Below, in pieces: positions 688-44,346 of a stretch of 45,437 bases of DNA (position 1 is its first letter; each line of letters starts with the position of its first letter). The stretch comes from a virus. Location: IMG/VR virus record IMGVR_UViG_2162886015_000004, positions 1 through 45,437 of that record. The stretch is one strand, 5' to 3'. The translations under genes and the position numbers were made by a program. The notes under the pieces were generated by a model. It was not told the DNA's origin and searched no databases. It saw only the letters and a program-made list of their open reading frames with translations.

Positions 688-764
688 GCCCGAATAGCTC
701 AGCTGGTTAGAGCACTTGACTGTTAATCAGGGGGTCGCTGGTTCGAGTCCAGCTTCGGGCGCCA
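688..764 (+). tRNA. tRNA-Asn(GTT)
   Basis: A full cloverleaf of 77 nt including an encoded CCA. The acceptor stem pairs GCCCGAA (688-694) with TTCGGGC (754-760), with discriminator G at 761. The anticodon stem is CTTGA (715-719) with TCAGG (727-731), and the loop CTGTTAA places anticodon GTT at 722-724. The T arm contains GGTTCGAGTCC. It is the integration target: the 3' part from 714 is repeated at attR, so the phage brought a replacement 3' end and the tRNA stays intact. Confidence 0.97.
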
Positions 765-765
765 C
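714..765 (+). repeat. attL core (52-bp direct repeat)
   Basis: Identical to 44287-44338; flanking bases differ on both sides (C versus T upstream, T versus G downstream). The repeat starts in the anticodon stem of tRNA-Asn and runs one base past the CCA end. It marks the left prophage boundary. Confidence 0.95.
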
Positions 766-777
766 TTTCGGCGCATT

Positions 778-799
778 GCGTGTAAATCCCCGTGTAAAT
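778..799. promoter_or_regulatory. Putative integrase arm-type sites, left (two copies of CGTGTAAAT)
   Basis: GCGTGTAAAT (778-787) and CCGTGTAAAT (790-799) lie directly between attL and the integrase stop codon, 12 bp apart. Two near-identical copies lie just inside attR (44187-44196 and 44240-44249). Short repeats flanking the core on the phage side are the expected arrangement for arm-binding sites of a tyrosine integrase. Function is inferred from position and repetition only. Confidence 0.55.
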
Positions 800-1926
800 C
801 AATCGCGCTTTCCGGCTGGTTTCACGGTCGGAATCTCGTGGTCGTACAGCGCCGTCATCGCGTCCGTCTTGTGTCCGCTGGCCTGTTTTTTGTCGGCGCG
901 CGTGCCCGGCGTATCGGTGACGCCGCGATGCTTCAACCCATGCAATCCGAAGCGTGCATCCTCGCCGATCACGCCAGCCTCGATCGCTACCGCCATCGAC
1001 CGGCGCCACGCACTGTTGAGCGCCGACTTGCTCAGGGCGCTACCATCCTCGGCCACTACCAGCGGACGCAGCGCCTGGGCGCGCAGTGCGGGCTTCTTGA
1101 GCCAGATGCGGGCGCGGCGAGACACCAGCCAGCCCCATGCTTCCGTCAGCTCCGGGCACCACGTCGTCAGGTTGCCATCGCTACCCTTGACGCGCTCCAC
1201 GATGATGCCGGCGTCCGTCCTGTTCGCATCAGTCAGGTTGCGTACCTCGATGCTGCGCATGCGACAGCGGTAGGCAATCTCTGCCACCGCCCATATGTAG
1301 GGCGGCACCGATCCTTTGCGGCGACTGGGGAGCGCGCCGCGCGCCCGCAGCAACGCAATGACATCACGCGCGGTATCGGCCTCGGGCATCCGGTGCGCCT
1401 TGCGTTCCTTGGCCTGCCTGATGCCTTGCGCGACGTTGACGTCCGCATAGCCATTCAACACCCCCCACTGGTACGCCACTGACAGATACCGCTTGACGTG
1501 GTTCGCCTTGCTCGGGGTCTTGATGGCGATATCATTCACCAGGCGCTGAATCAGCGGCGCCTTGATGCTGGCGCGACGCAGATAGGCGAAGGCCACACCC
1601 AACTGCGTCATGTGGCGCTGCAAGACGTCGCGGCAATACCGGTAGTCGATTTGCGTGTTCGCGCCTATCTCCGTCCGGAACTGGCCCGATTCCTCGAACT
1701 TGCCCAGCATGTAATCGAGCGTCGAACTGTCTGCGCCCTGCGCCAGCTCCATTGCCTTGTGCAAATCGGACAGCAGAGCCTTGTCGTCGGCGATCGGCTT
1801 GCTACGCTTGCCGGCGCGCAGTGTGTACCAGTACCGATCACGCCGATTCCAATAGCAGCCCGTCGGCAGCTTGCGTTGATCGATGTGGCTAGGGATGGAT
1901 GGGTCGTGTTTGCGCTGCCGCGGCAT
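799..1926 (-). CDS. int: Phage tyrosine integrase
   Basis: A 375-aa tyrosine recombinase that would integrate and excise the prophage at tRNA-Asn. The catalytic residues are visible: Arg224 in RMRSIEV, His329 and Lys332 in HGLKHRG, His352 in SGHKTD and the nucleophile Tyr361. Lys in place of the second Arg is seen in the phage integrase family that ends in a KP-containing tail and travels with DUF4224 genes. The start is ATG at 1926, sharing one base with the TGA of the upstream gene; a GTG one codon earlier is also possible. It sits 34 bp from attL, reading towards it, and is the last gene of the leftward early operon. Confidence 0.95.
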   Translation of the reverse strand: MPRQRKHDPSIPSHIDQRKLPTGCYWNRRDRYWYTLRAGKRSKPIADDKALLSDLHKAMELAQGADSSTLDYMLGKFEESGQFRTEIGANTQIDYRYCRDVLQRHMTQLGVAFAYLRRASIKAPLIQRLVNDIAIKTPSKANHVKRYLSVAYQWGVLNGYADVNVAQGIRQAKERKAHRMPEADTARDVIALLRARGALPSRRKGSVPPYIWAVAEIAYRCRMRSIEVRNLTDANRTDAGIIVERVKGSDGNLTTWCPELTEAWGWLVSRRARIWLKKPALRAQALRPLVVAEDGSALSKSALNSAWRRSMAVAIEAGVIGEDARFGLHGLKHRGVTDTPGTRADKKQASGHKTDAMTALYDHEIPTVKPAGKRD

Positions 1927-2138
1927 CACAGCACCTTGTCGGGGTCATAGGCTTCGTCGTTTGCCGATCCTACGCCAAGCGCGGCGTTCAGGGCGTCACG
2001 TGTCGTCCATGGACCATCCTTCCCATCCTTGACGCGAATGCCCTGTTCGCTTGCCCACCTGCGCACGGCGGAGCGATTATGCTTGCCGGATAGCTGGCGC
2101 AGCGTCTCCGCATCCACTATATGCGGATTCTGGATCAT
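1926..2138 (-). CDS. DUF4224-like small protein, possible excision factor
   Basis: A 70-aa protein with the pattern of DUF4224: a short helix-turn-helix-like region beginning HIVDAETLRQLSG, then RRWASEQGI and a beta-turn DGKDGPW. Proteins of this type are usually encoded immediately upstream of phage integrases, which suggests a role in directionality or DNA binding; that role is inferred. The start ATG (2138) overlaps the upstream stop as ATGA, and its own stop overlaps the integrase start, so the three genes are probably translationally coupled. A longer in-frame start exists upstream but would run through the end of the preceding gene. Confidence 0.7.
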   Translation of the reverse strand: MIQNPHIVDAETLRQLSGKHNRSAVRRWASEQGIRVKDGKDGPWTTRDALNAALGVGSANDEAYDPDKVL

Positions 2139-2803
2139 GCCGCTACCGCCTCCGCGTAGGCTTGCTGGATTCGCTGAAACTCCACCACCCACACCCACGG
2201 GTCGGCGTGCCATGCGCCTTCGCCGTTGATTTGGTCCCAAAGCTGTCGGAATGTGCGGCGCCAGCCTGTCTCATCGCTCGGCCAGTCGCGAGCATTGCCA
2301 TCTATGGACGGTCGAACGCCTTCGGCTTCACACCCTGCGTCTGTGATTCCATGCAGCCGCTCGACGCGCACGTCGGTTACTTCCAGCGTGATGCGACTGG
2401 CCCACCGATACATATGGATGGAGGGGCGCCACTTCGGCAGCAGCTGCTCGCGCAGTTCCTTGTCCGAATAGTCGGCGCGCCAGAACACGGGCTCGTCGTC
2501 GCAAAGGTGCGGATAGAGTTGGCCCCAAGTCTCCCGCACCCACAGCCGATCGCCGGGCTGGCCGTAGGGACACAGTTCGGGGCATGCCGACAAGGAAGCC
2601 GGCGCGCCATCGTCAAGGAACTCATAGCCCCATGAATCGGGGTCGTTGTGCCGGCCGGAATAATGCAGCGCCGGCTCGGCCTCTGCCAGATTGACGATCG
2701 GATACTTGCGGTATGGCTTCAACACTCGCCGCGTCACCGTCTTGCGGCCTTCGAGGATCGCGCGAACCATCGGCGCGGAGAACAGGATGGGACGCTCTTT
2801 CAT
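2135..2803 (-). CDS. ASCH-like phage protein of unknown function
   Basis: A 222-aa protein beginning MKERPILFSAPMVRAILEGR followed by KTVTRRVLKP, the start of a widespread phage family with an ASCH-like fold (PUA-related, probably RNA or nucleotide binding). The middle has the typical PGDRLWVRETW and the end WVWVVEF. It is often called a morphogenetic protein, but its real activity is unknown. The start overlaps the previous stop as ATGA, and its stop overlaps the next start the same way. Its place between the DGR remnant and the integrase gene is probably incidental. Confidence 0.75.
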   Translation of the reverse strand: MKERPILFSAPMVRAILEGRKTVTRRVLKPYRKYPIVNLAEAEPALHYSGRHNDPDSWGYEFLDDGAPASLSACPELCPYGQPGDRLWVRETWGQLYPHLCDDEPVFWRADYSDKELREQLLPKWRPSIHMYRWASRITLEVTDVRVERLHGITDAGCEAEGVRPSIDGNARDWPSDETGWRRTFRQLWDQINGEGAWHADPWVWVVEFQRIQQAYAEAVAA

Positions 2804-3528
2804 GCCGCGATCCTCTCCGGCATGGCCCAGCGTCCGGGCCCAACGCGCACAGCGATGCGCTGCAAGGTCTGCCGGATCTTGGCTTGCCAGAAGTTGTTGG
2901 TGGTGGGGCGGGCGCCTTCCACTTCGTTGTAGATGGCGGCGAGGTCGGCAACGCCGCCGAGAGTTTCCAGCGCCGCCATGGTCACGGCGGCCCACACTGA
3001 GCGTTCGCCCTGGGCCAGCAAAGCGCGGTAGCGTCGGCGGAGATGGGTGACGGCGTAGGTCTCGCCGTACAGGGCGAAGCCGAACAACTTGCCGTTGCGT
3101 TCCTTGACGAACGTCGCGAAGCACAGCGGCAGGCTGAGGCGGTGGAACAGGTTGCGCGGCAGCATGTCCTGCCGGATCGACCAGCGTTGCTGCAGCGTGG
3201 CTCGCGGCGACCAGGTGCCGTCGATGATCTGCTGCTGGATCTGCAGCAGGCCGTCGATCCATCGGCTGTCGAAGCTGAGTTGGTCGAGACTGGGGACCTT
3301 GCCACGGCGCGCCTGGCGCCGTGCACGGTCAAGCGCATGTAGCGTGACATCCTGACACTCACCGGACACGAGCGAACGCACCGGCCGGCAGAACGCCTTG
3401 TTGTTCCGGTCGTTGTTGTTCACGTTGCCGTTGTTGAAATTGACGATAAAGACGCGGCCCGGAGACCACGCGTCCCCGCTCTCTTGCGACCCTGCCGCGC
3501 ATCCATCCGGGTAGCGTGACGTCGTCAT
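2800..3528 (-). CDS. DGR reverse transcriptase remnant fused to a C-terminal winged-helix-like domain
   Basis: The open frame has three parts. Residues about 19-57 are the in-frame reading of the template-repeat-like DNA and are probably not meant as protein. Residues about 60-111 look like the N-terminus of DGR reverse transcriptases: LHALDRARRQARRGK, a spaced LSFDSRW, then LLQIQQQIIDGTWSPR. The palm that should follow is absent; there is no YxDD box or other polymerase motif in any frame. From about residue 112 the frame continues into unrelated sequence ending in a winged-helix-like segment (AALETLGGVADLAAIYNEVE and NFWQAKIRQTLQR). A deletion fusing a reverse transcriptase to a neighbour explains this best. 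The real start may be a GTG near 3369 rather than the ATG at 3528 that overlaps the avd stop. Confidence 0.6.
   Translation of the reverse strand: MTTSRYPDGCAAGSQESGDAWSPGRVFIVNFNNGNVNNNDRNNKAFCRPVRSLVSGECQDVTLHALDRARRQARRGKVPSLDQLSFDSRWIDGLLQIQQQIIDGTWSPRATLQQRWSIRQDMLPRNLFHRLSLPLCFATFVKERNGKLFGFALYGETYAVTHLRRRYRALLAQGERSVWAAVTMAALETLGGVADLAAIYNEVEGARPTTNNFWQAKIRQTLQRIAVRVGPGRWAMPERIAA
3358..3474 (-). repeat. DGR template-repeat-like sequence, AAC-rich
   Basis: In the minus-strand direction this 117-bp stretch would read FIVNFNNGNVNNNDRNNKAF, with Asn codons almost all AAC. That is the typical look of a DGR template repeat, where adenines mark the positions to be mutated. It lies between the Avd-like gene and the reverse transcriptase remnant, the usual place. 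It is homologous in pattern to the three variable repeats of this prophage (GxVxFxxGxxxxxxRxx...CRPV versus CRPL), but differs at many non-adenine bases, so it cannot be their template. No matching variable repeat was found in the window. Confidence 0.7.
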
Positions 3529-3959
3529 GGATTGGCCTCACGTTGCGAGGCGGAGCGGGTACTCAGTGTCTTGGCACACTGACGGGAGGTAACAGTCCCG
3601 CCATTCTGGCCGTTGGGGTGTTGCAAGCTGCGTTTCCAGCCACCCACCATGCGTCCCAGTTCTACCTTCAGCAGCGCAATGGTGCCGAGATGGTTGGCAC
3701 TGATCTGGCCCAAGTCCTTGGCGGTTTGAAGAGCTTCGCCGAGATCATCGAGCACCCACGACAGATCACTCACCCACTTGGGTGCATTGGCCGTATCGCG
3801 CCAGGCACGATTGATGAGAGAGATGAGTCTGTCAGCATGACTACAGATCGTCCGACCCAACTCATAGCGATGAGATCGCGTGAAGCGACTCACCGTCCGA
3901 TGCACTTCGGCACGGAACGATCGGGCTTTCTTCATGATGGGAGGGATGGCTGGATTCAT
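3525..3959 (-). CDS. avd: Avd-like DGR accessory protein (four-helix bundle)
   Basis: A 144-aa, mostly helical protein without membrane segments. Length, position and the helical pattern (EVHRTVSRFTRSHRYELG, then LISLINRAWRDTANAP, then ALQTAKDLGQISANHLGTI) fit the accessory variability determinant of DGRs, related to the four-helix 23S-rRNA intervening-sequence proteins. Avd forms a basic pentamer that binds the reverse transcriptase and template RNA. The gene lies 30 bp after a variable-repeat gene and directly before the template-like region and the reverse transcriptase remnant, the canonical DGR order. Its stop overlaps the next ATG. Family assignment rests on pattern and context. Confidence 0.75.
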   Translation of the reverse strand: MNPAIPPIMKKARSFRAEVHRTVSRFTRSHRYELGRTICSHADRLISLINRAWRDTANAPKWVSDLSWVLDDLGEALQTAKDLGQISANHLGTIALLKVELGRMVGGWKRSLQHPNGQNGGTVTSRQCAKTLSTRSASQREANP

Positions 3960-3989: not shown

Positions 3990-4115
3990 TCACTGCTGAC
4001 TGGCGGGCAACGGGCGGCACACGGCCAGAGCCCGGCTGCTGCAGCCGCGGACGTACCTGTCGATGTAGCCCGCGCCGAAGCCGACGCTCCACGCGCAGCC
4101 GGCAGGCGACGACGC
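3990..4115 (-). repeat. DGR variable repeat A
   Basis: A 126-bp repeat from the Ala-Ser-Ser codons to the stop, matching 8693-8818 and 10347-10472. The last 39 coding bases (CTG GCC GTG... to TGA) are identical in all three and would be the initiation-of-mutagenic-homing end. Differences from B and C fall only at first and second bases of codons whose inferred template is adenine (AAC, GAC, ACG, ATC, AGC, ACT). Confidence 0.85.
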
Positions 4116-4475
4116 ACTGACGGGCTTGAGCCAGTACCATTCCGATTTGATGCCGGGATGTTTCGCGGTATCGACCGCAGGATTGAACTTGCTGTAGTCG
4201 ACCAGCAGGATGGCATCGCGAGGTTCGGCAAGATTCCATGGCGTATGCCCGTGAACCTGTTCAAGCTTCGCTACGGCACCCGGAGCATCATGGTGCGTCA
4301 CCTTATCGGTGAAGGTGTAGAGCAAGTCCGTACCGGCGATGCGGTGCACGCCGTCTGGCAGTTTCTTGCCGGCGATCACGTCGAGCTTGTCGGAGAGCGC
4401 CTTGGCGATGGTGTCCATCGCAGTGTCGGGGTTGTCGATGGTGACGCTGAGATGGATCGTTTGCGGAGCAGTCAT
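3990..4475 (-). CDS. DGR variable protein A (C-type lectin / DUF1566-like)
   Basis: A 161-aa protein with a DUF1566/formylglycine-enzyme-like C-type lectin C-terminus (SEWYWLKP, then AWSVGFGAG, then LAVCRPLP). The last 42 codons are a DGR variable repeat shared with two paralogues in the window; sites where the others have Tyr, Asn or Ser read Cys, Gly, Val or Ser here. Such domains display a hypervariable ligand-binding face on a fixed scaffold. No signal peptide or membrane segment is visible, so it is probably cytoplasmic or virion-borne; the ligand is unknown. The start at 4475 is chosen for GGAG eight bases upstream and for similarity to paralogue C. It is the target nearest avd. Confidence 0.8.
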   Translation of the reverse strand: MTAPQTIHLSVTIDNPDTAMDTIAKALSDKLDVIAGKKLPDGVHRIAGTDLLYTFTDKVTHHDAPGAVAKLEQVHGHTPWNLAEPRDAILLVDYSKFNPAVDTAKHPGIKSEWYWLKPVSASSPAGCAWSVGFGAGYIDRYVRGCSSRALAVCRPLPASQQ

Positions 4476-4597
4476 GTGAAACTCCAAGGGTGAAGGGATG
4501 CTGGTTACGGTTCCAGCGCTGATGTGATCCGTTGATGTTCCGGAAGACCCGGCAGTCATCGCAGGGCAGAGCAGCCGTCTCGCTCGCCGGTTGTGGG

Positions 4598-5395
4598 TTA
4601 CGGGGTGAAGCTACCCAAATACAACCTCGCGTCGCTGCCGATGCCGTCCTGCAGCTTCCGCTTGAACTCCTGTGCGATAGCCTCCTGTGCCGATTCCAGC
4701 GCGATGGCGCGAAGCACCAGCTGCGGCTTGTCGCCGCCGGTCAGGATCGAGAGGCGCAGGGTGAAGGAGCGGATAGCCAGGCCGGCATACGGCGTGGCCG
4801 TGAAGCCGAAGCCATAGGGCAGGCCGTCGTCGGCAGATGCTTCGATTTCTTCCAGCGACGACTTGCGGGCGCCGAAATCCTTTTCGGTATGCGTGGCCTC
4901 AGCTGTCGCCTTGATCGTCAGTTTGCGGACTGCGGCAAGGGCTTTGGACACATTGATCTGAGCGCCGTCCGCGGCGATGGCGGTGATGTTGCCGCTCCAG
5001 TCTTCGGCGAAGTCGATCATGTCGCGCTGGCTCAGGCGATTACCGAGTACCTTCAGCATGGCGGCGTATTCGGCGGTCGGCTTCAGCTTGAGCATGGCCG
5101 TCCAGTCGCCGTGCCCAGGCGCCTCGGTTTCGCCGAGGTTGAAGAACACTTTCGCGGCGATGTTTTCGGCATCGACGAATCCATGGCCGCCCGGATGGTC
5201 TTTCGTGTATGTGACGAAATCATCCAGTGAATCGGTCGTCAGTTTGCCGCGGAAGCGGGAGCGACCTTCGCCAAGGTGTTCGGTCGACTTGATGTCGCTG
5301 CCGATGATGATGGCCGGTGTATGGGTGTTGAGACGGTTCGAGGCTGCCGCCTGGATGGCGGTATCCTGAATCAGTTGGATGGCGCTGGAATCCAT
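4598..5395 (-). CDS. DUF2303 family phage protein (YfdQ-like)
   Basis: A 265-aa protein of the DUF2303 family, found in early regions of many temperate phages. It has the expected length and typical landmarks (an early HTPAIIIG segment, then DDFVTYTKDH, AKVFFNLG, and a C-terminal LRLSILTGGDKPQLVLR). The biochemical role is unknown; family members sit with recombination genes, as here. A good Shine-Dalgarno (AGGAA) lies before the ATG. The 122 bp between its stop and variable protein A holds no recognisable gene. Confidence 0.85.
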   Translation of the reverse strand: MDSSAIQLIQDTAIQAAASNRLNTHTPAIIIGSDIKSTEHLGEGRSRFRGKLTTDSLDDFVTYTKDHPGGHGFVDAENIAAKVFFNLGETEAPGHGDWTAMLKLKPTAEYAAMLKVLGNRLSQRDMIDFAEDWSGNITAIAADGAQINVSKALAAVRKLTIKATAEATHTEKDFGARKSSLEEIEASADDGLPYGFGFTATPYAGLAIRSFTLRLSILTGGDKPQLVLRAIALESAQEAIAQEFKRKLQDGIGSDARLYLGSFTP

Positions 5396-5448
5396 GGTCT
5401 GTTCCTGTGTTGTGGGTGAGAGATACAGCCGCGCTGAATGCGGGAAAC

Positions 5449-5829
5449 TCAGTGCGTCCCGTCGACCGTGCTACGCGGCGGTTCGGCGGAACGATCCTTG
5501 TTGAACATGTCGACTTGCTCGCCCGGGTACAGGGAGAGCTTGCCGCCGCGGCCGACGTGCAGCGGGGTATCGCCAGCCGACTCTTCGGTGATCCGGCCGC
5601 GCATCATCGGCACGACGGACTTGAGCGAGTGAGTCAGCGCGACCTGGCTGGAATCTCCGATCTGCCTGATCTGCAGCTTGATGATCAGCTCGCCCTTCTT
5701 GCCGTGGGTAACCACGTTCGCGGCCACGTCGCTGATCGCAGCGTTGAGCTGCTGTTCGAACACGCCGGCATTGAGATCGGTCAGAAGCTCGGCGATGTTG
5801 GTGCGGTTCGTTTGGATGCTCTTGTTCAC
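5449..5829 (-). CDS. Phage early protein of unknown function
   Basis: A 126-aa protein read from a GTG at 5829 with GGAG nine bases upstream; an ATG start further up would overlap the NinB-like gene and lacks a ribosome site. It begins VNKSIQTNRTNIAELLTDL and has a beta-rich middle (GELIIKLQIRQIGDSSQVAL) and a C-terminal GKLSLYPGEQVDMF. It looks like the small partner genes often found between DUF2303 and NinB-like genes in temperate phages. I cannot assign a function. Confidence 0.65.
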   Translation of the reverse strand: MNKSIQTNRTNIAELLTDLNAGVFEQQLNAAISDVAANVVTHGKKGELIIKLQIRQIGDSSQVALTHSLKSVVPMMRGRITEESAGDTPLHVGRGGKLSLYPGEQVDMFNKDRSAEPPRSTVDGTH

Positions 5830-5857
5830 AGGTGCTCTCCTAGATTGAGTGGTGCGC

Positions 5858-6292
5858 TTATCGGCGCCAAAGCGGATCAGGGCTGGGAATATCAATCCCA
5901 AACTGCGCCGCCTGGCGCTGAATGAAGTCGTAGAACGCGGACATGGTTATGGTGTCGATCACGTCACGTTCGCCGCGATCGTTGGTGGTGGTGGTGCGCC
6001 GCGGGCGCGGTTTGCCGAGCGGTCCATCGACCCATCCGAAGAAGTCGCCGCAGAAGTCGCGATGCAGTTGCTTCTTCTCGGCATCGCCCTGCAGGCCTGT
6101 TGCTTCCATGATCCGGTCGTAGGCCAGGCCGAACATGGCGGCGTTCTGATCCTGCGTGCGTTCCTTGCGGTCTTCCCGCACCTCGATGCGCCATGACTTG
6201 GCGACTGGCAAACGATCGATGAAGGCATGCAGGTTGGCGCGCACCGCGTCGCGGTTGGGGTGACCTTTGCGCAGGACATGGATCTGTGCCAT
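5858..6292 (-). CDS. NinB-like recombination protein
   Basis: A 144-aa protein resembling NinB, the lambda nin-region recombination protein that acts with the Orf/Red functions. Visible features are an N-terminal WRIEVREDRKERTQDQNA block in which the SQN-type motif appears as TQDQN, a helical middle (MFGLAYDRIMEATG) and a C-terminal MSAFYDFIQRQAAQFGI. It lies three bases after the exonuclease gene and with the ERF gene forms a recombination cluster. Confidence 0.7.
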   Translation of the reverse strand: MAQIHVLRKGHPNRDAVRANLHAFIDRLPVAKSWRIEVREDRKERTQDQNAAMFGLAYDRIMEATGLQGDAEKKQLHRDFCGDFFGWVDGPLGKPRPRRTTTTNDRGERDVIDTITMSAFYDFIQRQAAQFGIDIPSPDPLWRR

Positions 6293-6295
6293 GAA

Positions 6296-6922
6296 TCAGC
6301 CCGCCTTCCGCTGATCGCTCAGGATGTCCATCCATTCCTTCACCCGCGACTCAAGGACGGCCACGCGTGAGGCCATCTGATCTTTCTCGCTGTCAGTGAC
6401 TTCGCACGGGATGATGATCAAGCCGGCCTTGGGGTGATCGCATAGGAAATCCATCGACTCCAGCTCGCCGACCCACATGCCCCATTTGGTCTGCCACAGG
6501 TATTCGGATGGAATCTTCCCGGTCCGCTTCACTTCCATGTAGGCCTTGTGAAGCGGATTCTTGGCTTCGATACCATGCTTGCGACCGTGAAGGCCATCAG
6601 GTGACCAGCCGACATGCGGGATCGTCGCGTGTTCCACGAATCCGCATTCGTCAATGACGCGGTCAGTCGTGAAGGCATAGCTCTCGCGGGTATCAGGCTC
6701 AAGGTTATTCCCGCGCTCCATGGCCGCTGACTTGAAGCTGCTGTGCTCCACAGGGCCATAGACGCGACCCCACGCGATATCCATGATCAGGTCATCAAGC
6801 CCTTTCGTGGTCAGCCCACCCATGATCGTGCTAGCGCGCGATGCGCTCCACTTGCCAGCGCGAATTGCATGCCAAGCATCCGTTCCCTGCTCGATGTCAA
6901 AATGGAATACGGGGCCGATCAT
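6296..6922 (-). CDS. YqaJ / lambda-exonuclease-family recombinase nuclease
   Basis: A 208-aa 5'-3' double-strand exonuclease of the PD-(D/E)XK superfamily. Motifs in order: GKWSASRASTIMG near residue 28, AMERGNNLEPDTRESY, the catalytic Asp in GWSPDGL, and the Glu-Ala-Lys of GIEAKNP. Such enzymes resect DNA ends and load a single-strand annealing protein, here the ERF protein encoded immediately upstream. The ATG overlaps the ERF stop as ATGA, which supports coupled synthesis of the two partners. Confidence 0.9.
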   Translation of the reverse strand: MIGPVFHFDIEQGTDAWHAIRAGKWSASRASTIMGGLTTKGLDDLIMDIAWGRVYGPVEHSSFKSAAMERGNNLEPDTRESYAFTTDRVIDECGFVEHATIPHVGWSPDGLHGRKHGIEAKNPLHKAYMEVKRTGKIPSEYLWQTKWGMWVGELESMDFLCDHPKAGLIIIPCEVTDSEKDQMASRVAVLESRVKEWMDILSDQRKAG

Positions 6923-7677
6923 TGCGCCGCACTCTTCAATTCATTGAACTTCGCGTTGAACGCGGCAAGCACATGTTTCGGGACGCGCTTCACGTCGCCA
7001 TATGCCTTGATCACTTCAGCTTTTTTCGCCTTGTAATCATCAATGGTGGTTAGCGATTCCGCAGTCGACTGCCAATCCATCGCCAGCCTTTCAGCGACCG
7101 GGTCGATTTCGGGATCGCGTTCTCCGCCCCGGCCGTCGTCGTCCATACCTTTGGTCGACATGCCGGTAATCGCCAGCAGGGTGTAACGCTGCAAATAGGT
7201 TGTAGTCGATGCGATCGACTGGATCGCGTTCTTCTTTCCCGATGCATCCGGTGCGCCGCTCATGGTGACGGTTTCTGAGTGGCCGAGAACGTGCGTCAGA
7301 ATGCAGTCGACCTTGATCGCGCCAGCCTCCTGGTGAATGTTCCAGCGATAGGAAAGGCTGTGTTTTGCCAGCGCCGCGCCGATAGCATCGGTGATGTCAG
7401 AAAGCTCCGCATGCTTGTATTTCACGTCAAGGAAGGCAACTTCCTTCCGCTTGAAAATCTCGACCGGCTCAGCCTTGAACCCGGTCATGGCAACCGTGAA
7501 TGCCTTACGCGCTTCGTTGGCTTCCCAACGGTCCTGCAGGTCCATCATGTGATTCAGTTGCTCGACGTTGCCGCCTGCCTGCATGAAGGCAAGGGCGCTA
7601 CCAAGCGGACTTGTTGCCGGCGCCGATACCTGCAATCCCTTCGGCTCATGTTCGATGACTCGTGCAGTGGTTTCCAT
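6919..7677 (-). CDS. ERF-family single-strand annealing protein
   Basis: A 252-aa ERF superfamily recombinase, which anneals single-stranded DNA and allows circularisation and recombination of phage genomes. Typical features are AFTVAMTGFKAEPVEIFKR, the VKYKHAELSDITDAIG block, and SIASTTTYLQRYTLLAITG followed by DDDGR. The start at 7677 has GGAG eight bases upstream; a Met four codons earlier would place that site inside the gene. It pairs with the downstream exonuclease in a Red-like system. Confidence 0.92.
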   Translation of the reverse strand: METTARVIEHEPKGLQVSAPATSPLGSALAFMQAGGNVEQLNHMMDLQDRWEANEARKAFTVAMTGFKAEPVEIFKRKEVAFLDVKYKHAELSDITDAIGAALAKHSLSYRWNIHQEAGAIKVDCILTHVLGHSETVTMSGAPDASGKKNAIQSIASTTTYLQRYTLLAITGMSTKGMDDDGRGGERDPEIDPVAERLAMDWQSTAESLTTIDDYKAKKAEVIKAYGDVKRVPKHVLAAFNAKFNELKSAAQ

Positions 7678-7689
7678 GCCAATCTCCAA

Positions 7690-8631
7690 TCAGTAAGCGA
7701 TGCTGGTGTGCGCGACCTTTCCGGAAGCGATCGCGATCACTAGAAGTTTTGCTGTGTCCTGGCTGCAGCCGGCTTTCACCAGGTCAGCCAAAACGGCGTT
7801 GTTGATAGCAGCGCAATGACGCTTGTTCGCGGCGCGCTTTTCGTCTTCGGCCTTGATGCGTGCGGCCTCGGCAGCGCGCTGGGCTTCGATGCGGGATGCT
7901 TCCTGCTTCGCTCGCTCTTCGGCCTGGCGCACGGCCTCAACCTGATCGTGTTCGGCCTTCTCGCGCGCTGCTGCGGCGTCACGCTCCGCTTTTTCAGCAG
8001 CACGTCGCGCCGATTCTTTGGCTTCCTCGGCTTCGCGTGCAGCTTTGGCTATAGCCTCTGCAGCATCACGCTCGGCCTTGGTTGCAGCATCCTTGCGAAT
8101 GGCTTCCTCACGTTCGGCGCGTTCGCGCTCCGCCTTCTCAGCAGCCAGCTTGTCGGCAGATTCCTTCTCCTTCGCAGCGACAGCGGCTTCACGAGCGGCG
8201 ATATCCGCCTCGCGCTGTGCAAGGGCTGCACGCTCAGCCTCGGCAGCAGCTACGCGTTCGGCCTCAGCCTTCGCAGCGGCCTCCTGCTCAATGCGCGCTT
8301 GTTCGGCCTCCCAATCGTCCAGCGGCTTGCGCACTTCGTCGCGCAGCGCATCCAGATAGTCGCGGGCCTTCTTGCGAGCGGCGTCCACAACCTTGACCTG
8401 GTTTTTGGCATCCTCAACCAGAGACTTGCCGGCCTCATCAATCGTGGTCTTGCTGCGTGCCACTTTGTATGCCAGCGATGCAATTTCCTTGCGGCCGCCA
8501 GCGGTCAAAACGTCCGGCACAATGGTCGCCGTTTCCTGCCGAATCTTCACCAGCAACTCATCCAGGTTCGGCCCAGTGAAAACTTCTACCGCATTGATCG
8601 ACTCAAGCGGGATAAGCGATGTACCGTCCAT
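7690..8631 (-). CDS. Ala/Glu/Lys-rich coiled-coil phage protein
   Basis: A 313-aa protein. Residues about 110-275 are a long uninterrupted helical stretch of Ala, Glu, Lys and Arg, so a coiled coil is very likely. The N-terminus (about 1-100) is a separate domain starting MDGTSLIPLESINAVEVF and resembling phage DUF1351-type proteins. Annotations such as TolA for this type reflect only the low-complexity helix. There is no signal peptide. It lies 12 bp upstream of ERF in the recombination cluster. The ATG at 8631 has GAGG seven bases upstream. Confidence 0.75.
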   Translation of the reverse strand: MDGTSLIPLESINAVEVFTGPNLDELLVKIRQETATIVPDVLTAGGRKEIASLAYKVARSKTTIDEAGKSLVEDAKNQVKVVDAARKKARDYLDALRDEVRKPLDDWEAEQARIEQEAAAKAEAERVAAAEAERAALAQREADIAAREAAVAAKEKESADKLAAEKAERERAEREEAIRKDAATKAERDAAEAIAKAAREAEEAKESARRAAEKAERDAAAAREKAEHDQVEAVRQAEERAKQEASRIEAQRAAEAARIKAEDEKRAANKRHCAAINNAVLADLVKAGCSQDTAKLLVIAIASGKVAHTSIAY

Positions 8632-8692
8632 CAAATCCTCTTGCCGGAGTCCGCCGGCACGGTGTTGAAATAGAAGCACCAAAAAAGCCCAA

Positions 8693-8818
8693 TCACTGCT
8701 GACTGGCGGGCAACGGGCGGCACACGGCCAGAGGCCGGCTGCTGTAGTTGCGGTAGTTCCTGCCGATGTAGCCCGTGTCGAAGTAGACGTACCACGCGCT
8801 GCCGGCAGGCGACGACGC
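8693..8818 (-). repeat. DGR variable repeat B
   Basis: A 126-bp repeat ending at the stop codon. It differs from A and C only at template-adenine-compatible positions and keeps AAC or TAC at many codons where A has GGC, GTC or TGC. The 39-bp 3' end is identical in all three copies. Confidence 0.85.
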
Positions 8819-9124
8819 ATCGGGTGTACGCGTCCAGTGCCACTCCGGCTTGATGTGCGGGTATTCCTCGGGATCGACGGCGGGGTTGTAGAAGCGACGA
8901 TCCACGATCAACTCGGCGTCCTTGTCGCTCATCAGCTCCCAGGGCGTGTAGCCGGGAATCTGTGGGAGCTTGGCGCTAGCCGCTTCGGCATCGCGCTGTC
9001 TCAGATCCTTGTCACTGGCATAGGCAGTGACGATCTGATCGCGCAGGTTGAGGATGCCAGCGCATGCCGCGGCATCAGCGGAAAGATGCGAACCGTCGGC
9101 GGCAAGCTTGATGAACTTGGACAC
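8693..9124 (-). CDS. DGR variable protein B (C-type lectin / DUF1566-like)
   Basis: A 143-aa paralogue of variable proteins A and C, read from GTG at 9124 with AGGAG eight bases upstream. The scaffold (PQIPGYTPWEL, NPAVDPEEYP, PEWHWTRT) matches the others. The variable face reads mostly Tyr, Asn and Ser, close to an unmutated template, so this copy looks the least diversified. There is no signal peptide. It lies in the early operon upstream of the recombination genes, far from the tail genes that most phage DGRs target. The ligand is unknown. Confidence 0.8.
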   Translation of the reverse strand: MSKFIKLAADGSHLSADAAACAGILNLRDQIVTAYASDKDLRQRDAEAASAKLPQIPGYTPWELMSDKDAELIVDRRFYNPAVDPEEYPHIKPEWHWTRTPDASSPAGSAWYVYFDTGYIGRNYRNYSSRPLAVCRPLPASQQ

Positions 9125-9136
9125 GTGGAATCTCCT

Positions 9137-9151
9137 GCCGGCGTGGCCGGC
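9137..9151. other. GCCGGC-N3-GCCGGC hairpin before variable gene B
   Basis: A perfect 6-bp stem just upstream of the ribosome site of the gene at 9124. Related hairpins occur at 8643-8658 and 10296-10312. They may shape translation or mark DGR targets; no function is proven. Confidence 0.35.
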
Positions 9152-9166
9152 GTTGTTGAGTAGCGG

Positions 9167-9478
9167 TTAGGCAACTTCGGTTTTCGGAAGCGTGCCAAGA
9201 TCGATAGGCTCCGGGTCAGGCGCAATGCGGATGCCTTTGTTTTCCAGCTTGTTCGTGATCGCAGAACGGCGCCTGGCGATGACTTCGAGAACTTCGGTCG
9301 GCGTGATGTCGATCAGCTGAGCGAGACCTTCGCCTGATCCATCAAATTCAGAACCGCCTCCATCACATCGCACGACCAGCTCATCCACAGTCGCCAGCTG
9401 ATCCAGCAGATCCCGCACCTCGTTCACGGCTGCTTTCCCGCGAAGGGTGGCTGCGACGGAGATAGGCGTGGCGCTCAT
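9167..9478 (-). CDS. Phage early protein of unknown function
   Basis: A 103-aa protein from ATG at 9478, which overlaps the upstream stop (ATGA). It begins MSATPISVAATLRGKAAVNE, has an acidic middle (VVRCDGGGSEFDG) and a short basic helix (VIARRRSAITNKLENKG). No family recognised. It lies 42 bp upstream of variable gene B in the same operon. Confidence 0.6.
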   Translation of the reverse strand: MSATPISVAATLRGKAAVNEVRDLLDQLATVDELVVRCDGGGSEFDGSGEGLAQLIDITPTEVLEVIARRRSAITNKLENKGIRIAPDPEPIDLGTLPKTEVA

Positions 9479-9705
9479 GCGGGTTCCTTGGAGAGAGTGC
9501 TGGCCATGGCGCGATCCAGGGGGAGATCTGCCGGGAGGAGGCCGGTGCCATGGCCTGCGGTGAAAGCGTTTCGCGCATGGAATCGAGCGGCGCGTGCCTG
9601 CTCTTCCTCGTTGCGCTTGATGCATAGCGTCTCGACGAGAGTCACGGCGATGCGCTGTTCCGGCGTCCATTCCGGACAGTCCATGAAGTTGCAGAGACTG
9701 CTCAT
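9475..9705 (-). CDS. Small phage early protein
   Basis: A 76-aa protein from ATG at 9705, one base of which is shared with the preceding TGA; a GTG one codon earlier is possible. A helical core (EQRIAVTLVETLCIKRNEEEQARAA) and one Cys pair are visible. No family recognised. Both ends overlap neighbours, which supports a real gene in a coupled operon. Confidence 0.55.
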   Translation of the reverse strand: MSSLCNFMDCPEWTPEQRIAVTLVETLCIKRNEEEQARAARFHARNAFTAGHGTGLLPADLPLDRAMASTLSKEPA

Positions 9706-10034
9706 CACAGATCCCTGGCCGCCGCATCACGCGCTGCGATCAGCAGCACGGCTACGCGCTCCTGGATCTCGTCCATATGCCGCACGATGCATTCATCGAC
9801 GGCGCGCAGCACGATCTCTTCGTCGGCCGTGACCAGGCACTCGCGATACGGATCGGTGCCCATGTCCAGTTCGAACGGTGTCCGTAGCAGCTGGGCAATG
9901 CGGTCACGCTCGGCGATCAGCTCGCGGCGTAGGCGAGCGACTTCCAGACCGCGATCAATCGCGACTTGCTTGGCGTCGTCGGATGGTGCGAAAGGCCGCA
10001 GGGCGTCCTGCAGGGGTTTCGGCAGGGCGCTCAT
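9705..10034 (-). CDS. Phage early protein of unknown function, helical
   Basis: A 109-aa, mostly helical and acidic protein. The start at ATG 10034 overlaps the upstream stop as ATGA; the longer reading frame upstream is a shadow of the membrane protein gene. It contains VARLRRELIAERDRIAQLL and EIVLRAVDECIVRHMDEIQE, which suggest paired helices. No family recognised. Confidence 0.6.
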   Translation of the reverse strand: MSALPKPLQDALRPFAPSDDAKQVAIDRGLEVARLRRELIAERDRIAQLLRTPFELDMGTDPYRECLVTADEEIVLRAVDECIVRHMDEIQERVAVLLIAARDAAARDL

Positions 10035-10285
10035 GAAAGCCACCCGCGCACGACTGGAACCAGCGTCGCCAGCTCGTAAGCCACGAACGACAACAGCAAC
10101 GAGCAGGCAACACGCACGAGCCACACCCACGGCGATGCCGGCGGCGCGTCGTCAGTTTCGGCGCAACCCGACGTGTCGTTCTCGCGGATGCGATCGAGCA
10201 GGGCATCGGTCTCGATCTGCGCACTTAGACGCAGGGATCGCTCTGCTTCGTACTGGTAACTGGCGCGATGAGTGAGGGAGTTCAT
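10031..10285 (-). CDS. Small single-TM membrane protein
   Basis: An 84-aa protein with a hydrophilic N-terminus of about 50 residues and one membrane helix at residues 53-77 (VWLVRVACSLLLSFVAYELA). The gene follows variable protein C after 61 bp; a GCCGGC hairpin stands before its ribosome site. It could be an early membrane-active factor, but nothing identifies its job. Confidence 0.6.
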   Translation of the reverse strand: MNSLTHRASYQYEAERSLRLSAQIETDALLDRIRENDTSGCAETDDAPPASPWVWLVRVACSLLLSFVAYELATLVPVVRGWLS

Positions 10286-10295
10286 GGGAACCTTT

Positions 10296-10312
10296 GCCGG
10301 CTACCGGCCGGC
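10296..10312. other. GCCGGC-N5-GCCGGC hairpin after variable gene C
   Basis: A 6-bp stem 35 bp downstream of variable repeat C. A similar GCCGG/CCGGC hairpin follows repeat B at 8643-8658, with conserved flanks (CACCG before it, CAA-AGG after it). DGR targets usually need a hairpin shortly after the variable repeat, so these are candidates. Repeat A has none. Confidence 0.35.
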
Positions 10313-10346
10313 GCGGTGCGGGATGAGGAAGGGCGCCAAACGCCGA

Positions 10347-10472
10347 TCACTGCTGACTGGCGGGCAACGGGCGGCACACGGCCAGAGCCCGGCCGTAGTA
10401 GTAGCGGCTGTCCCTGTTGAAGCCGCCCGCGTCGAAGTAGACGAGCCACGCGTAGCCGGCAGGCGACGACGC
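10347..10472 (-). repeat. DGR variable repeat C
   Basis: A 126-bp repeat ending at the stop, aligned without gaps to A and B. All differences fit mutation of template adenine; every variable codon keeps its third base. Confidence 0.85.
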
Positions 10473-10778
10473 ACTGACGGGCTTGAGCCAGTACCAGTCC
10501 GACGTGATGCCCGGATGCACCTTCGTGTTGACGGCGGGGCTGTAACGTTTGTCGTCGATCAGCAGCACGGCTTCGCGCTTCTCGGCCAGGTCCCACTTCG
10601 AGTAGCCGGGAATCTTCGGCAGGCCCTTGGCCCGCTTCGTGGCGTCCTGATGGCTGAGGCGCTCTTCGATCGTGGTGTAGAGCAGATCGGTACCGGCGAT
10701 GCGGTAGACGTTCGGCGACAGCTTCGGGGCCTTGTTGACGGTCTTCGGCTGCGCGGTTTTGCGGGCGGTCGTGTTCAT
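10347..10778 (-). CDS. DGR variable protein C (C-type lectin / DUF1566-like)
   Basis: A 143-aa paralogue of A and B. A and C share more of the scaffold: RIAGTDLLYT, LAE-x-R-x-A-x-LL, DWYWLKPVSASSPAG. The variable face here carries Tyr, Leu, Asp, Asn and Gly. The start ATG overlaps the upstream stop as ATGA. Third gene of the leftward early operon, so it should be made soon after induction or infection. No signal peptide; ligand unknown. Confidence 0.8.
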   Translation of the reverse strand: MNTTARKTAQPKTVNKAPKLSPNVYRIAGTDLLYTTIEERLSHQDATKRAKGLPKIPGYSKWDLAEKREAVLLIDDKRYSPAVNTKVHPGITSDWYWLKPVSASSPAGYAWLVYFDAGGFNRDSRYYYGRALAVCRPLPASQQ

Positions 10779-11227: not shown

Positions 11228-11244
11228 TTTATTTACGCAGCCAC

Positions 11245-11268
11245 AAAAAAGCCCGCCGGAGCGGGCTT
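11245..11268 (-). terminator. Rho-independent terminator of the immunity operon
   Basis: Stem AAGCCCGC/GCGGGCTT (11249-11256 and 11261-11268) with a 4-base loop, followed on the minus strand by six T. It ends the leftward repressor transcript just before PL. Confidence 0.85.
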
Positions 11269-11290
11269 GGTGCGGATCGCGTGGTGAGCG

Positions 11291-12047: not shown

Positions 12048-12707
12048 TTAATCCTCCCAGCTGCCGATCCACCGCACGCGGCCATGGATCTCGAATCCTT
12101 TGGCCTCATCCACCGGAATAGGGCGCTTCCACTTCGGATCGGCTTTGTTGTCACTGTCAATGAACCAACGGTCACCCAGGCGTACTAGACGCTTCGCGAA
12201 TAGATCGCGGCCATAGGTGATGACGAACAGTTTCTCGTCGCGTGGCTCCTTGTCGCTCAGGTCAACCAGGATCGCGTCGCCATCCTTGATCGTCGGGTAC
12301 ATGGAATCGCCTTTGCCATAGATCACGGCGAGCTTGTCTGCCTTGAGATGCTTGCGCTTCAGGCTTTCCGCACGAAACTTCAGCTTGTGCGTCTCGGCAT
12401 ACTCGTCCGGCTCAGCGCCGTCACCAAGCGCGGCGGCTTGCTTGACGCCAAGGATGTCAGCCCAGGCGGTGTCGGAATCCGCATCCTGCGGCGCCTCCAT
12501 TACCCCTTTGCCTGTTTCGAGCCATTCCACGCGCACTTTTAGCCGCTTGGCAATGCGGTGCAGGGCTGTCGTGCTATCCGAGAATCCGTTCTCGACATCC
12601 GCCAGCGTGCTGTAAGCGATTCCGGCCGCCGTGGCCAGATCCTTGCGCGTCACCTTGGCGGCTGGTCCGTGATCGCGCGCCAGCCTGATTCGTTCACCGA
12701 TTGTCAT
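12048..12707 (-). CDS. CI-like repressor, HTH plus S24 autoprotease
   Basis: A 219-aa lysogeny repressor. The N-terminal HTH_XRE domain covers about residues 4-60 (DLATAAGIAYSTLADVENG is the recognition region). The C-terminal LexA/CI-type peptidase has Ser135 in GDSMYP and Lys172 in DLFAKRL, so it should self-cleave on RecA activation during the SOS response. The start at ATG 12707 is set by the family; the longer frame would cross the cro promoter. It lacks a strong ribosome site. It faces cro across three operator copies and heads the operon with the Ala-Pro and two-TM proteins. Confidence 0.93.
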   Translation of the reverse strand: MTIGERIRLARDHGPAAKVTRKDLATAAGIAYSTLADVENGFSDSTTALHRIAKRLKVRVEWLETGKGVMEAPQDADSDTAWADILGVKQAAALGDGAEPDEYAETHKLKFRAESLKRKHLKADKLAVIYGKGDSMYPTIKDGDAILVDLSDKEPRDEKLFVITYGRDLFAKRLVRLGDRWFIDSDNKADPKWKRPIPVDEAKGFEIHGRVRWIGSWED

Positions 12708-12719
12708 AGTTATGCATTG

Positions 12720-12775
12720 CAACGGATTGCCGTTACGGATTGCCGTTGACAGTGAGCTACGGAAAACCGTAGGAT
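12720..12775 (+). promoter_or_regulatory. Right early promoter (PR) with three repressor operators
   Basis: Three ACGG-N4-CCGT palindromes at 12722-12733, 12735-12746 and 12759-12770; the last extends to CTACGG-AAAA-CCGTAG. TTGACA (12746-12751) and TAGGAT (12770-12775), spaced 18 bp, form a promoter overlapped by operators two and three. The layout matches a lambda OR region between a repressor and cro. Confidence 0.82.
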
Positions 12776-12782
12776 CGGCACC

Positions 12783-13022
12783 ATGAAGACAGTCTGGTCG
12801 GAACGAATCAAGGAACTCGGCATGACTTACGCCGAGATTGCCGACGCTGTCGGCGCACCCGCTTCCACGATCGGGGATCTGGCATCGGGGCGGAGTAAGT
12901 CCCCTCGTGGCGATCTGGCCATCCGTCTCCATGGGTTACACGTCGCCCATTGCAGCGCCGGCGAAGCGCCGGCCAAGCCCGCAGAGCAGGGCGCCAAGCC
13001 CTCGAAGCAGGAGGCGGCGTAA
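12783..13022 (+). CDS. Cro-like HTH regulator
   Basis: A 79-aa protein with an HTH at about residues 14-36 (MTYAEIADAVGAPASTIGDL) and a Lys/Ala-rich tail. It is divergent from the repressor and the first gene after PR, the position of cro. No Shine-Dalgarno precedes the ATG. The predicted promoter ends at 12775, so transcription should start at or within a base or two of the ATG, suggesting a leaderless message. It should bind the same operators and switch off the repressor. Confidence 0.8.
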   Translation: MKTVWSERIKELGMTYAEIADAVGAPASTIGDLASGRSKSPRGDLAIRLHGLHVAHCSAGEAPAKPAEQGAKPSKQEAA

Positions 13023-14560: not shown

Positions 14561-14889
14561 TGAGCCGCCAGATACCCCGCGATCTCCCGCACAAGGTCGA
14601 CCGGAAGCGAGACGAGAATGACGCTCTCGGCCATATCCGAGGCACCGCATTTCGCTCCGGGGCCATTGCTGCCGGCATCTACGCCACGCTGATGACCGAG
14701 CGTCTGTTGATGGTGGCCATCACGGATACCGGCGAAGTGTTCGCGGTCAACCCGTCCGGCCTACGCGGCGAGGCGATTTCCGCACGGCAGCCGTCCTGGA
14801 TCATCGGCACATACACGCGTCGCTGCGGCGTCGGCGCCATCCAGCGTGACATGCGTGAATATCAGCGGTTGCTGAAGGTTGCGGCATGA
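14560..14889 (+). CDS. Phage early protein of unknown function
   Basis: A 109-aa protein with a basic N-terminus (PRDLPHKVDRKRDEND) and a hydrophobic centre (GIYATLMTERLLMVAITDT) that is more likely a buried fold than a membrane helix. The ATG at 14560 shares one base with the previous stop. No family recognised. Confidence 0.6.
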   Translation: MSRQIPRDLPHKVDRKRDENDALGHIRGTAFRSGAIAAGIYATLMTERLLMVAITDTGEVFAVNPSGLRGEAISARQPSWIIGTYTRRCGVGAIQRDMREYQRLLKVAA

Positions 14890-14969
14890 CCTTTCCAGGC
14901 GACTTCAATCCCATCGAGCGTGCCATCTGGGCGCGGACGTGGCTGGTGCTGCGGGCGTTTCGGACGTGA
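14886..14969 (+). CDS. Possible 27-aa leader peptide before the C5 methyltransferase
   Basis: The frame MTFPGDFNPIERAIWARTW... starts with an ATGA overlap on the previous gene and ends with a GTGA overlap on the methyltransferase start. If translated it would couple the two genes. The methyltransferase has no good ribosome site of its own, which makes coupling attractive. Evidence is positional only. Confidence 0.4.
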   Translation: MTFPGDFNPIERAIWARTWLVLRAFRT

Positions 14970-15718
14970 ATTACTACAACGAAATCGATCCCTACTGCGC
15001 CGCTTGGCTGCAGAACCTCATGGACGCCGGCCACATCGCGCCTGGCGTCATCGACACACGGAGTATCGAAGATGTCCGACCCGACGAACTCGCCGGATAC
15101 ACCCAGTGCCATTTTTTCGCTGGGCTCGGCGGATGGCCCCACGCCCTGGCCCTTGCCGGATGGCAGGCTGATCGACCCGTGTGGACTGGCTCATGCCCTT
15201 GCCAGCCTTTCAGCGTCGCAGGTAAGGGCGCTGGGACTTCAGATCAGCGGCATCTCTGGCCTGCATGGTTCCATCTCATCGCACAGTGCCGTCCTCCAGT
15301 CATCTTTGGAGAGCAGGTTGCGAACGCGATTGGGCACGGCTGGCTCGATGGAACTTTCGCTGACCTGGAAGGCCAAGGCTACGCCTGCGGGGCGGCCGTA
15401 CTGTCAGCGAGTGCCGCAGATGCACCGCATCGACGTGACCGGCTATGGATCGTTGCCGACGCCGAGTGGAACAAGCAACCACGGCAAGAACCATGTATCC
15501 GGCCGGATCGACGAGTGGGGCGGGAGCAGCAACTATTTCCGTGGGAAGGAGGGTGGCAACGAGCACTTGCCCGGTTTCGAGCTTTGGACAATGGGATACC
15601 CCGCTGCGTGGCGGGAACTGATGCCGCCCGCAACGCGATCGTCCCGCAAGTCGCCGCAGCCTTCATCGAAAGCTACCGCGAAGCCCGAGGCTTGATTGGC
15701 TTGGAGGCTGCGGCATGA
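14966..15718 (+). CDS. C5-cytosine DNA methyltransferase
   Basis: A 250-aa phage-type DNA (cytosine-5) methyltransferase. Motif I is FFAGLGGWPHAL (about 50-61); the catalytic Cys79 lies in GSCPCQPFS; GEQV stands for the ENV motif; RRDRLWIVAD is motif VIII; the C-terminal ARNAIVPQVA is motif X. It modifies cytosine in an unknown site, probably to protect phage DNA from restriction. The GTG at 14966 fits the family N-terminus (NYYNEIDPY); an ATG 29 codons upstream is possible but adds unconserved sequence. Most of the gene is shared with a second reading frame at 15072-15695. Its stop overlaps the helicase start. Confidence 0.92.
   Translation: MNYYNEIDPYCAAWLQNLMDAGHIAPGVIDTRSIEDVRPDELAGYTQCHFFAGLGGWPHALALAGWQADRPVWTGSCPCQPFSVAGKGAGTSDQRHLWPAWFHLIAQCRPPVIFGEQVANAIGHGWLDGTFADLEGQGYACGAAVLSASAADAPHRRDRLWIVADAEWNKQPRQEPCIRPDRRVGREQQLFPWEGGWQRALARFRALDNGIPRCVAGTDAARNAIVPQVAAAFIESYREARGLIGLEAAA
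15072..15695 (+). CDS. Phage protein encoded within the methyltransferase gene in the +1 frame
   Basis: A 207-aa frame fully inside the methyltransferase gene. It does not look like a random shadow. From residue about 65 it has the character of a phage protein type often found beside C5 methyltransferases: LQSSLESRLRTRLG, MELSLTWKAKATPAGRPYCQ, SLPTPSGTSNHGKNHVSGR, IDEWGGSSN, FELWTMGYPAAWRELMPPAT and a Ser-Arg-Lys-rich end. The resemblance is from memory and not checked by search. The methyltransferase frame also keeps all its motifs, so both frames seem constrained. Function unknown. Confidence 0.6.
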   Translation: MSDPTNSPDTPSAIFSLGSADGPTPWPLPDGRLIDPCGLAHALASLSASQVRALGLQISGISGLHGSISSHSAVLQSSLESRLRTRLGTAGSMELSLTWKAKATPAGRPYCQRVPQMHRIDVTGYGSLPTPSGTSNHGKNHVSGRIDEWGGSSNYFRGKEGGNEHLPGFELWTMGYPAAWRELMPPATRSSRKSPQPSSKATAKPEA

Positions 15719-17112
15719 TCGACGCATACCGTCAATTTGTCGAAACCAAGCTGGCAACCGCCGTCGCCACTGGCTTGACTGGTGAGTTCGATTTGTCCAT
15801 CTACTCGCTGATGCCGCATCAGTCTGATCTGACGGCATGGGCATTGCGTCGCGGCCGTTGCGCCATCTTCGCGGATACCGGTCTGGGTAAGACGCGCATG
15901 CAATTGGCGTGGGCGAATGAGATCCACAAGGCGACTGGCCGCGATGTTCTGATTCTGGCTCCGCTGGCCGTGGCTGCGCAGACGGTGAAAGAAGGTGTGG
16001 AGATTGGCGTCACGGTGACGCATTGCCGCGAACTGACAGATGTTCAGCCCGGCGTGAATATCACGAACTACGACCGCATACATAGGTTTGATGCTGGCCG
16101 GTTTGGCGCGGTCGTTCTGGATGAGTCGAGCTGCATCAAGCATCACGACACCAAAACGCTGGCTACGCTGCTGGAAGCGTTCAAGGCAACTCCATTCAAG
16201 CTCTGCGCAACAGCCACGCCAGCGCCGAACGATTGGACGGAGTTGGGCACGCACGCCGAGTTCCTTGGCGTTTGCTCCCGCGTCGAAATGCTGTCGGAGT
16301 ATTTCGTTCACGACGGCGCTGAGACACAAGTCTGGCGGCTGAAGGGTCACGCCCGCGCGCAGTTCTGGAAGTGGGTATCCGGGTGGGGCGCAATGGTACG
16401 CAAGCCGTCCGACCTGGGCCATGACGATGCCGCGTACAACTTGCCGGACCTTACCGTGAGCGAGCACACGGTGGCGTCCACATTGCAGACGGCGGGGCAG
16501 TTATTCGCGTTCGAAGCGCAAACACTCAGTGAGCGCCGCGATGCAAGAAAGAACAGCCTTGCCGCCCGCGTGGCGAAATGCGCCGCATTGGTGAATGCCG
16601 ATCGCGAGCCGTGGATTGTCTGGTGCGACCTAAATGCGGAAGCCGATGCGCTGAAAGCCGCCATTCCGGACGCCGTGGAGATTCGTGGACCGGATGACGC
16701 CGACACGAAAGAGCGCCGGCTTGCTGACTTCGCTGCTGGACGCATTCGGGTGTTGATCACGAAGCCGTCGATCGCCGGGTGGGGTCTGAACTGGCAGCAC
16801 TGCGCACGGATGGCATTCGTTGGCGTGACCGATTCCTTCGAGGCCTATTACCAGGCCGTTCGCCGCTGCTGGCGGTTCGGGCAGCGCCGCGAGGTGTTGG
16901 TGCATATCTTCGCCAGCGAGCTAGAAGGCGCCGTCGTCGCCAATCTGAAACGCAAGGAAGCTGATGCGATGGCCATGTCCGAATCCCTATCCGCTGAAAC
17001 CCGCGACGCCGTGCGCGCCGAAGTATTCGGTTCAGTCCGGCAAAGCAATCCCTACACGCCGCGCAAGCCCATTGCGGCGCCGGCATGGCTCGTTACGGAG
17101 AAAGCTGCATGA
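15715..17112 (+). CDS. SNF2/SF2-type DNA helicase
   Basis: A 465-aa superfamily-2 helicase. Walker A is DTGLGKT with Lys59; the Walker B equivalent is VVLDESS (DESS instead of DEAH); motif III is CATATPAP; a C-terminal motif VI is QAVRRCWRFGQRR. Such ATPases pump along double-stranded DNA and are found in phages next to methyltransferase genes. It overlaps the C5 methyltransferase before it and the second methyltransferase after it as ATGA, so the three form one translational unit that probably acts on phage DNA modification or protection. Confidence 0.9.
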   Translation: MIDAYRQFVETKLATAVATGLTGEFDLSIYSLMPHQSDLTAWALRRGRCAIFADTGLGKTRMQLAWANEIHKATGRDVLILAPLAVAAQTVKEGVEIGVTVTHCRELTDVQPGVNITNYDRIHRFDAGRFGAVVLDESSCIKHHDTKTLATLLEAFKATPFKLCATATPAPNDWTELGTHAEFLGVCSRVEMLSEYFVHDGAETQVWRLKGHARAQFWKWVSGWGAMVRKPSDLGHDDAAYNLPDLTVSEHTVASTLQTAGQLFAFEAQTLSERRDARKNSLAARVAKCAALVNADREPWIVWCDLNAEADALKAAIPDAVEIRGPDDADTKERRLADFAAGRIRVLITKPSIAGWGLNWQHCARMAFVGVTDSFEAYYQAVRRCWRFGQRREVLVHIFASELEGAVVANLKRKEADAMAMSESLSAETRDAVRAEVFGSVRQSNPYTPRKPIAAPAWLVTEKAA

Positions 17113-33942: not shown

Positions 33943-33966
33943 ACCACCGCACATGTAACAAACCCG

Positions 33967-33989: not shown

Positions 33990-34007
33990 ATTGCTTCAAG
34001 GATTCCC

Positions 34008-44338: not shown

Positions 44339-44346
44339 GTTTGATG

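Follow-up and report, generated by a model that had tools for sequence, protein, structure and literature searches.

The prophage analysed here most probably (roughly 0.8 by our estimate) bears a recently active Rhodanobacter DGR, which has lost its matching template repeat (TR) and RT through mosaic recombination and deletion, while its variable repeats (VRs) remain. The window, i.e., the whole stretch of DNA that was analysed, is a virus contig of 45,437 bases from a metagenome, and its features are listed in Table 1. No fitting TR and no RT catalytic core are left in the prophage, and avd is intact, which supports the loss of the machinery, with the caveat that the lineage and fusion junctions described below were read from one assembled metagenome contig.

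Table 1. Features of the DGR cassette and of the surrounding prophage (positions in the window)
Feature	Position	Strand	Basis and remarks
Attachment repeat, left copy (55 nt)	714-768	+	Overlaps tRNA-Asn (688-764)
Integrase	799-1929	-	phrog_1 integrase, E 5.4e-24
Methyltransferase, C-terminal 131 codons	2800-3195	-	Phage F116-type DNA adenine methyltransferase; in-frame fusion to RT remnant
Truncated RT, first 111 codons	3196-3528	-	TR' inside; catalytic core absent; 61% over 129 aa to L094 RT, E 2e-25
TR', template-repeat-like, other DGR lineage	3350-3470	-	Alignment to relatives; no cognate VR in the window
avd, intact (144 aa)	3525-3959	-	bAvd E 2e-7, below curated cut-off; 87% aa identity to Avd of the intact L121 cassette
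Junction zone of two DGR lineages, 3' end of avd	3530-3590	-	60-nt block identity, L126 versus L094/L123
VR1 (126 nt)	3990-4115	-	Gap-free alignment with VR2 and VR3
VP1, Lcl_C protein	3990-4559 (start may be 4475)	-	Lcl_C E 2.6e-8, just under curated cut-off; L126 ortholog; carries VR1
Early genes between VP1 and VP2	4598-7689	-	DUF2303 (4598-5395); YqaJ exonuclease (6296-6922); Erf annealing protein (6919-7689)
VR2 (126 nt)	8693-8818	-	Gap-free alignment with VR1 and VR3
VP2, Lcl_C protein	8693-9124	-	Lcl_C E 4.4e-10; carries VR2, including non-adenine column 8734
VR3 (126 nt)	10347-10472	-	Gap-free alignment with VR1 and VR2
VP3, Lcl_C protein	10347-10778	-	Lcl_C E 1.2e-10; L126 ortholog; carries VR3
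CI-like repressor, helix-turn-helix and S24 peptidase	12048-12932	-	Domain matches
Attachment repeat, right copy (55 nt)	44287-44341	+	Direct copy of the 55-nt repeat

Prophage and host

The flanks outside the two attachment repeats match Rhodanobacter sp. OK091 with 94% and 91% identity, and in that genome the two flank matches lie 55 nt apart in an empty-site pattern; Rhodanobacter genomes were reached via a protein encoded in the host flank. Because of these matches at an empty-like site and the 55-nt repeats, the element is a prophage in the tRNA-Asn of a Rhodanobacter. The left part of the minus strand encodes the integrase, YqaJ exonuclease, Erf, DUF2303 protein and CI-like repressor, with the three VP genes among these, and the terminase, portal, tape measure, baseplate and tail genes are on the right side of the prophage. 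Besides the methyltransferase fragment at 2800-3195, two more DNA methyltransferase genes are present at 14879-15718 and 17085-17984 in the rightward early region. Short direct repeats with a period of ~12 nt are located at 18342-18594 inside the ORF at 18170-19012, suggesting a repetitive protein segment, while a GC-rich and then T-rich stretch forms an inverted pair at two distant sites (11239-11270 and 33964-33995), which are perhaps similar terminators.

Variable repeats

According to the original prediction, three repeats end three genes and align without gaps, which was borne out by the ORFs and the alignment: each VR constitutes the final 42 codons, stop included, of its own minus-strand ORF. 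Of the 23 variable columns in the three-VR alignment, 13 fall on first codon positions and the other 10 on second positions. Third bases had been claimed to be all kept, and the count at third positions is indeed 0 of 23 (hypergeometric P ~8e-6, tested within the varied span). In contrast, the 150 nt directly upstream of the VRs differ at 48-68 sites per pair, with 22-27 of these at third positions, as the predicted contrast with ordinary divergence would have it.

An A is present in at least one window copy at 20 of the 23 variable columns. The TR of L126 (IMGVR_UViG_3300012942_000008), an IMG/VR phage and the closest relative, has A at 19 of the 23, and at three further columns A is carried by two window copies out of three; judged by the L126 TR and the window copies together, 22 of the 23 are adenine-type columns. 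The claim that all variable columns fit a template adenine therefore stands with one exception, the first base of codon 28 (G/C/G in GCT/CCT/GCT), where no copy has A and the L126 TR has G, and which is best read as an ordinary non-adenine substitution. The fixed positions of the VRs show one ordinary change among the three copies. The identical 3' end was confirmed too, but with a length of 41 nt in the alignment instead of 39 bp. The VRs end in GTCAG, compared with GTGAG in the TRs of relatives and in TR', which is a 3' marker of the IMH/IMH* type; hairpins 3' of the VRs are weak.

By this pattern the three repeats are genuine DGR variable repeats, and the alignment indicates that a single template gave rise to the last ~120 bp of the three Lcl_C genes, the changes falling at its adenines in all but one column.

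Relatives with intact cassettes

Complete DGRs, mostly consisting of two or three Lcl_C targets, avd, TR and RT, were found in Rhodanobacteraceae genomes and IMG/VR phages, and the intact relatives share the order VP3 - VP2 - VP1 - avd - TR/RT with the window. Across seven intact loci, the VRs depart from the TR at 254 of 466 adenine cells; the other changes between VR and TR are essentially the constant 3' G-to-C (TR GTGAG, VR GTCAG) and a few alignment-edge positions. Comparison with related strains, which had been suggested as a check, thus placed the VR changes of these relatives at TR adenines, and the adenine-specific DGR mutagenesis originally proposed is supported by relatives with a known TR.

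L126 encodes Avd, RT, a TR and three VPs that match VP1-3 of the window one-to-one and in the same order, with a DNA identity of 76-80% in blocks. The template inferred from VR1-3 shares 90.8% identity with the L126 TR. At eight positions, the 3' marker among them, the three window VRs agree with one another but not with the L126 TR; these shared differences would be expected if one TR of the window lineage rewrote all three VRs after the split from L126.

The exact cognate TR was not found in 234 genomes of the host family, a set outside which the actual host strain's genome falls, nor in IMG/VR by the VR/TR pattern used. Weak short DNA matches to the inferred template in some genomes (e.g. 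L088, L089) were set aside as probable chance matches. RTs of the window DGR group were found in 10 of the 234 genomes.

Two further loci were observed among the relatives. A VP gene with a VR-like end occurs in an early phage-gene setting in genome G100 (L125, 6957-7388), in which no RT match of the window DGR group was obtained, and it is a possible second case of an orphan VR. On a phage contig (L152, 131-616), an RT of the window DGR group loses similarity after ~144 codons, beside the contig end. Because of this truncated RT and the G100 VP gene lacking an RT match, decay as in the window may not be unique.

TR' and truncated RT

A search of the whole window for a further template copy returned the three VRs only. 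A genome-wide search for an A-bearing repeat had been advised with the original prediction; it gave no fitting template, and the cognate TR is absent from the window, which holds the ill-fitting TR' and no other copy. TR' has 26-27 non-A mismatches plus gaps to the window VRs, compared with 8-9 non-A mismatches and zero gaps for the L126 TR. By this alignment, VR1-3 do not have TR' as their template, and TR' is of a different DGR lineage. In 60-nt blocks, window identity to L126 is 73-93% down to ~3530 and 56-68% beyond, and identity to the L094/L123 lineage climbs to 75-85% over the TR; because the block identity switches in this way, a junction of two DGR lineages is placed near the 3' end of avd.

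The ORF at 2800-3528 has a start overlapping the avd stop and begins like the RTs of relatives. Its methyltransferase part showed 45% identity to F116-type phage methyltransferases by tblastn (E 3e-23), and 56-69% to longer ORFs (308-347 aa) in host-family genomes. No RVT_1 match was obtained in the window, which first suggested a host-borne RT; this idea was abandoned, the truncated RT and TR' then being recognised from relatives. Judged by what the ORFs retain, the window cassette is broken in cis and not a complete DGR, and its VRs are DGR products.

In the window (3350-3528) as well as in L093, L094, L095, L121-L124, L126 and others of this DGR group, the TR is located in frame within the 5' portion of the RT ORF. 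There, avd is directly followed by the start codon of the RT, which overlaps the avd stop in the cases checked. In L137 the frame seems broken. In the window DGR group, translation of the TR may give the RT an Asn-rich N-terminus.

Target proteins

The VPs are 143-189 aa long and no signal peptide was visible in them by eye. The AlphaFold model of VP3 has a mean pLDDT of 79.6, with 52-66 across most of the variable part. With this model, which is weak over the variable part, the best Foldseek matches were C-type lectins, all with E > 0.1, so that the assignment of a C-type-lectin-like fold rests mainly on Pfam Lcl_C. The phage collection yielded no match at the DNA level or to the VP proteins, and nothing was found by a VP profile scan of genome contigs. 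The VP genes are located among early recombination genes, away from the tail genes, and because of this location we might guess that the VPs work within the cell as variable binders, in a conflict with rival phages or with the defences of the host.

Proposed history and alternative explanations

We propose that an L126-like TR/RT, since lost, wrote VR1-3 not long ago, a recent writing being indicated because the fixed positions show one change among the three copies. The left arm up to avd would have been exchanged with another DGR phage, and a deletion would have taken the RT core together with the front of a methyltransferase gene; no order or dates of these events are implied. Without a further DGR in the cell to act on them, the VRs would now be frozen. 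From these few sites, the clean VRs suggest one of two things, recent RT loss or upkeep in trans.

Upkeep in trans would make the prophage a non-autonomous DGR user, whose VRs are still rewritten by a chromosomal or second-prophage DGR with a fitting TR. It would explain why the VRs are nearly free of ordinary fixed-position mutations despite a dead local RT, and also why avd is intact; full DGRs of the window group do occur in the host family (in the 10 genomes mentioned above), and G100 has VP genes and yields no RT match of that group. We nevertheless regard it as rather unlikely, as no fitting TR was found in the searched virus contigs and family genomes (the actual host strain being outside this set), and recent RT loss accounts equally well for clean VRs. 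An extension that we also think unlikely is that the prophage is a client of co-resident DGRs, keeping three VRs and avd, hypervariation then being a service that the prophages of one cell share and that acts on early, intracellular proteins.

It is quite improbable that the contig is an assembly chimera, in which two DGR prophages of one sample were joined at the conserved avd end, the TR and RT of the real phage being intact and fitting. The source is a metagenomic virus collection, the lineage switch falls within a partly conserved stretch, and cassettes are intact in relatives, all in keeping with such a join. However, the right part of the sequence continues through a second in-frame fusion, that with the methyltransferase, and on to the integrase and host flank, which a simple mis-join at avd leaves unexplained, and L152 shows another truncated RT. 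Finally, ordinary gene duplicates under diversifying selection or gene conversion, without any DGR, would fit three genes homologous along their length, whose ends gene conversion can homogenise, but this explanation was rejected on codon-position grounds and is effectively refuted by the heavy third-position divergence just upstream of VRs that have none, by the coincidence of variable columns with TR adenines of the sister phage L126, and by the avd and RT remnant that adjoin VP1.

If the reading of a decayed cassette is correct, a DGR has been caught decaying by mosaic exchange, in which VRs, avd, TR and RT each have a history of their own, and VRs can persist after their writing machinery is gone. 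The window also adds a group of soil temperate phages in which DGRs target small proteins encoded amid the early recombination genes instead of tail fibres, and this early-gene location makes a role in intracellular phage-host conflict testable. Should rewriting in trans be true instead, one DGR could diversify several co-resident prophages.

Comparison with known DGR systems

The DGRs of L126 and L121 (the latter a Rhodanobacteraceae prophage in genome G125) resemble that of the window in having three Lcl_C targets among early recombination genes, avd, a TR inside the RT ORF and the same gene order; they differ in possessing a full RT and a TR that fits their own VRs, in contrast to the foreign TR' and truncated RT of the window. 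The archetypal DGR of Bordetella phage BPP-1 likewise shows the order avd - TR - RT and adenine-directed changes at the 3' end of its target gene, which there is C-type-lectin-like (PMC12875486). Unlike the window, with three early-region targets and TR' inside the RT ORF, BPP-1 possesses an active RT and a single target, the tail-fibre gene mtd. A TR in the 5' part of the RT ORF is also the arrangement of DiGReF group 3 DGRs (PMC3521204), from which the window differs in that its RT is cut off. In Stenotrophomonas sp. SKA14, several VRs are likewise located in DUF1566 (Lcl_C) proteins, but this DGR was reported with an RT and two TRs (PMC6642488), whereas no fitting TR exists in the window.

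VRs without a local RT have been described in RT-less DGR fragments of Nanoarchaeota, which were read as fossils or as remotely diversified (PMC4372165), and gut prophages have second, distal VRs near counter-defence genes such as methyltransferases (PMC12629997). Compared with both, the steps of decay are legible in the window, namely a change of lineage at avd and a deletion that runs from the RT into a methyltransferase gene. Thus, TRs inside RT ORFs (PMC3521204), multi-VR DUF1566 cassettes (PMC6642488) and RT-less DGR fragments (PMC4372165) have all been described already, and the window is a new, broken example.
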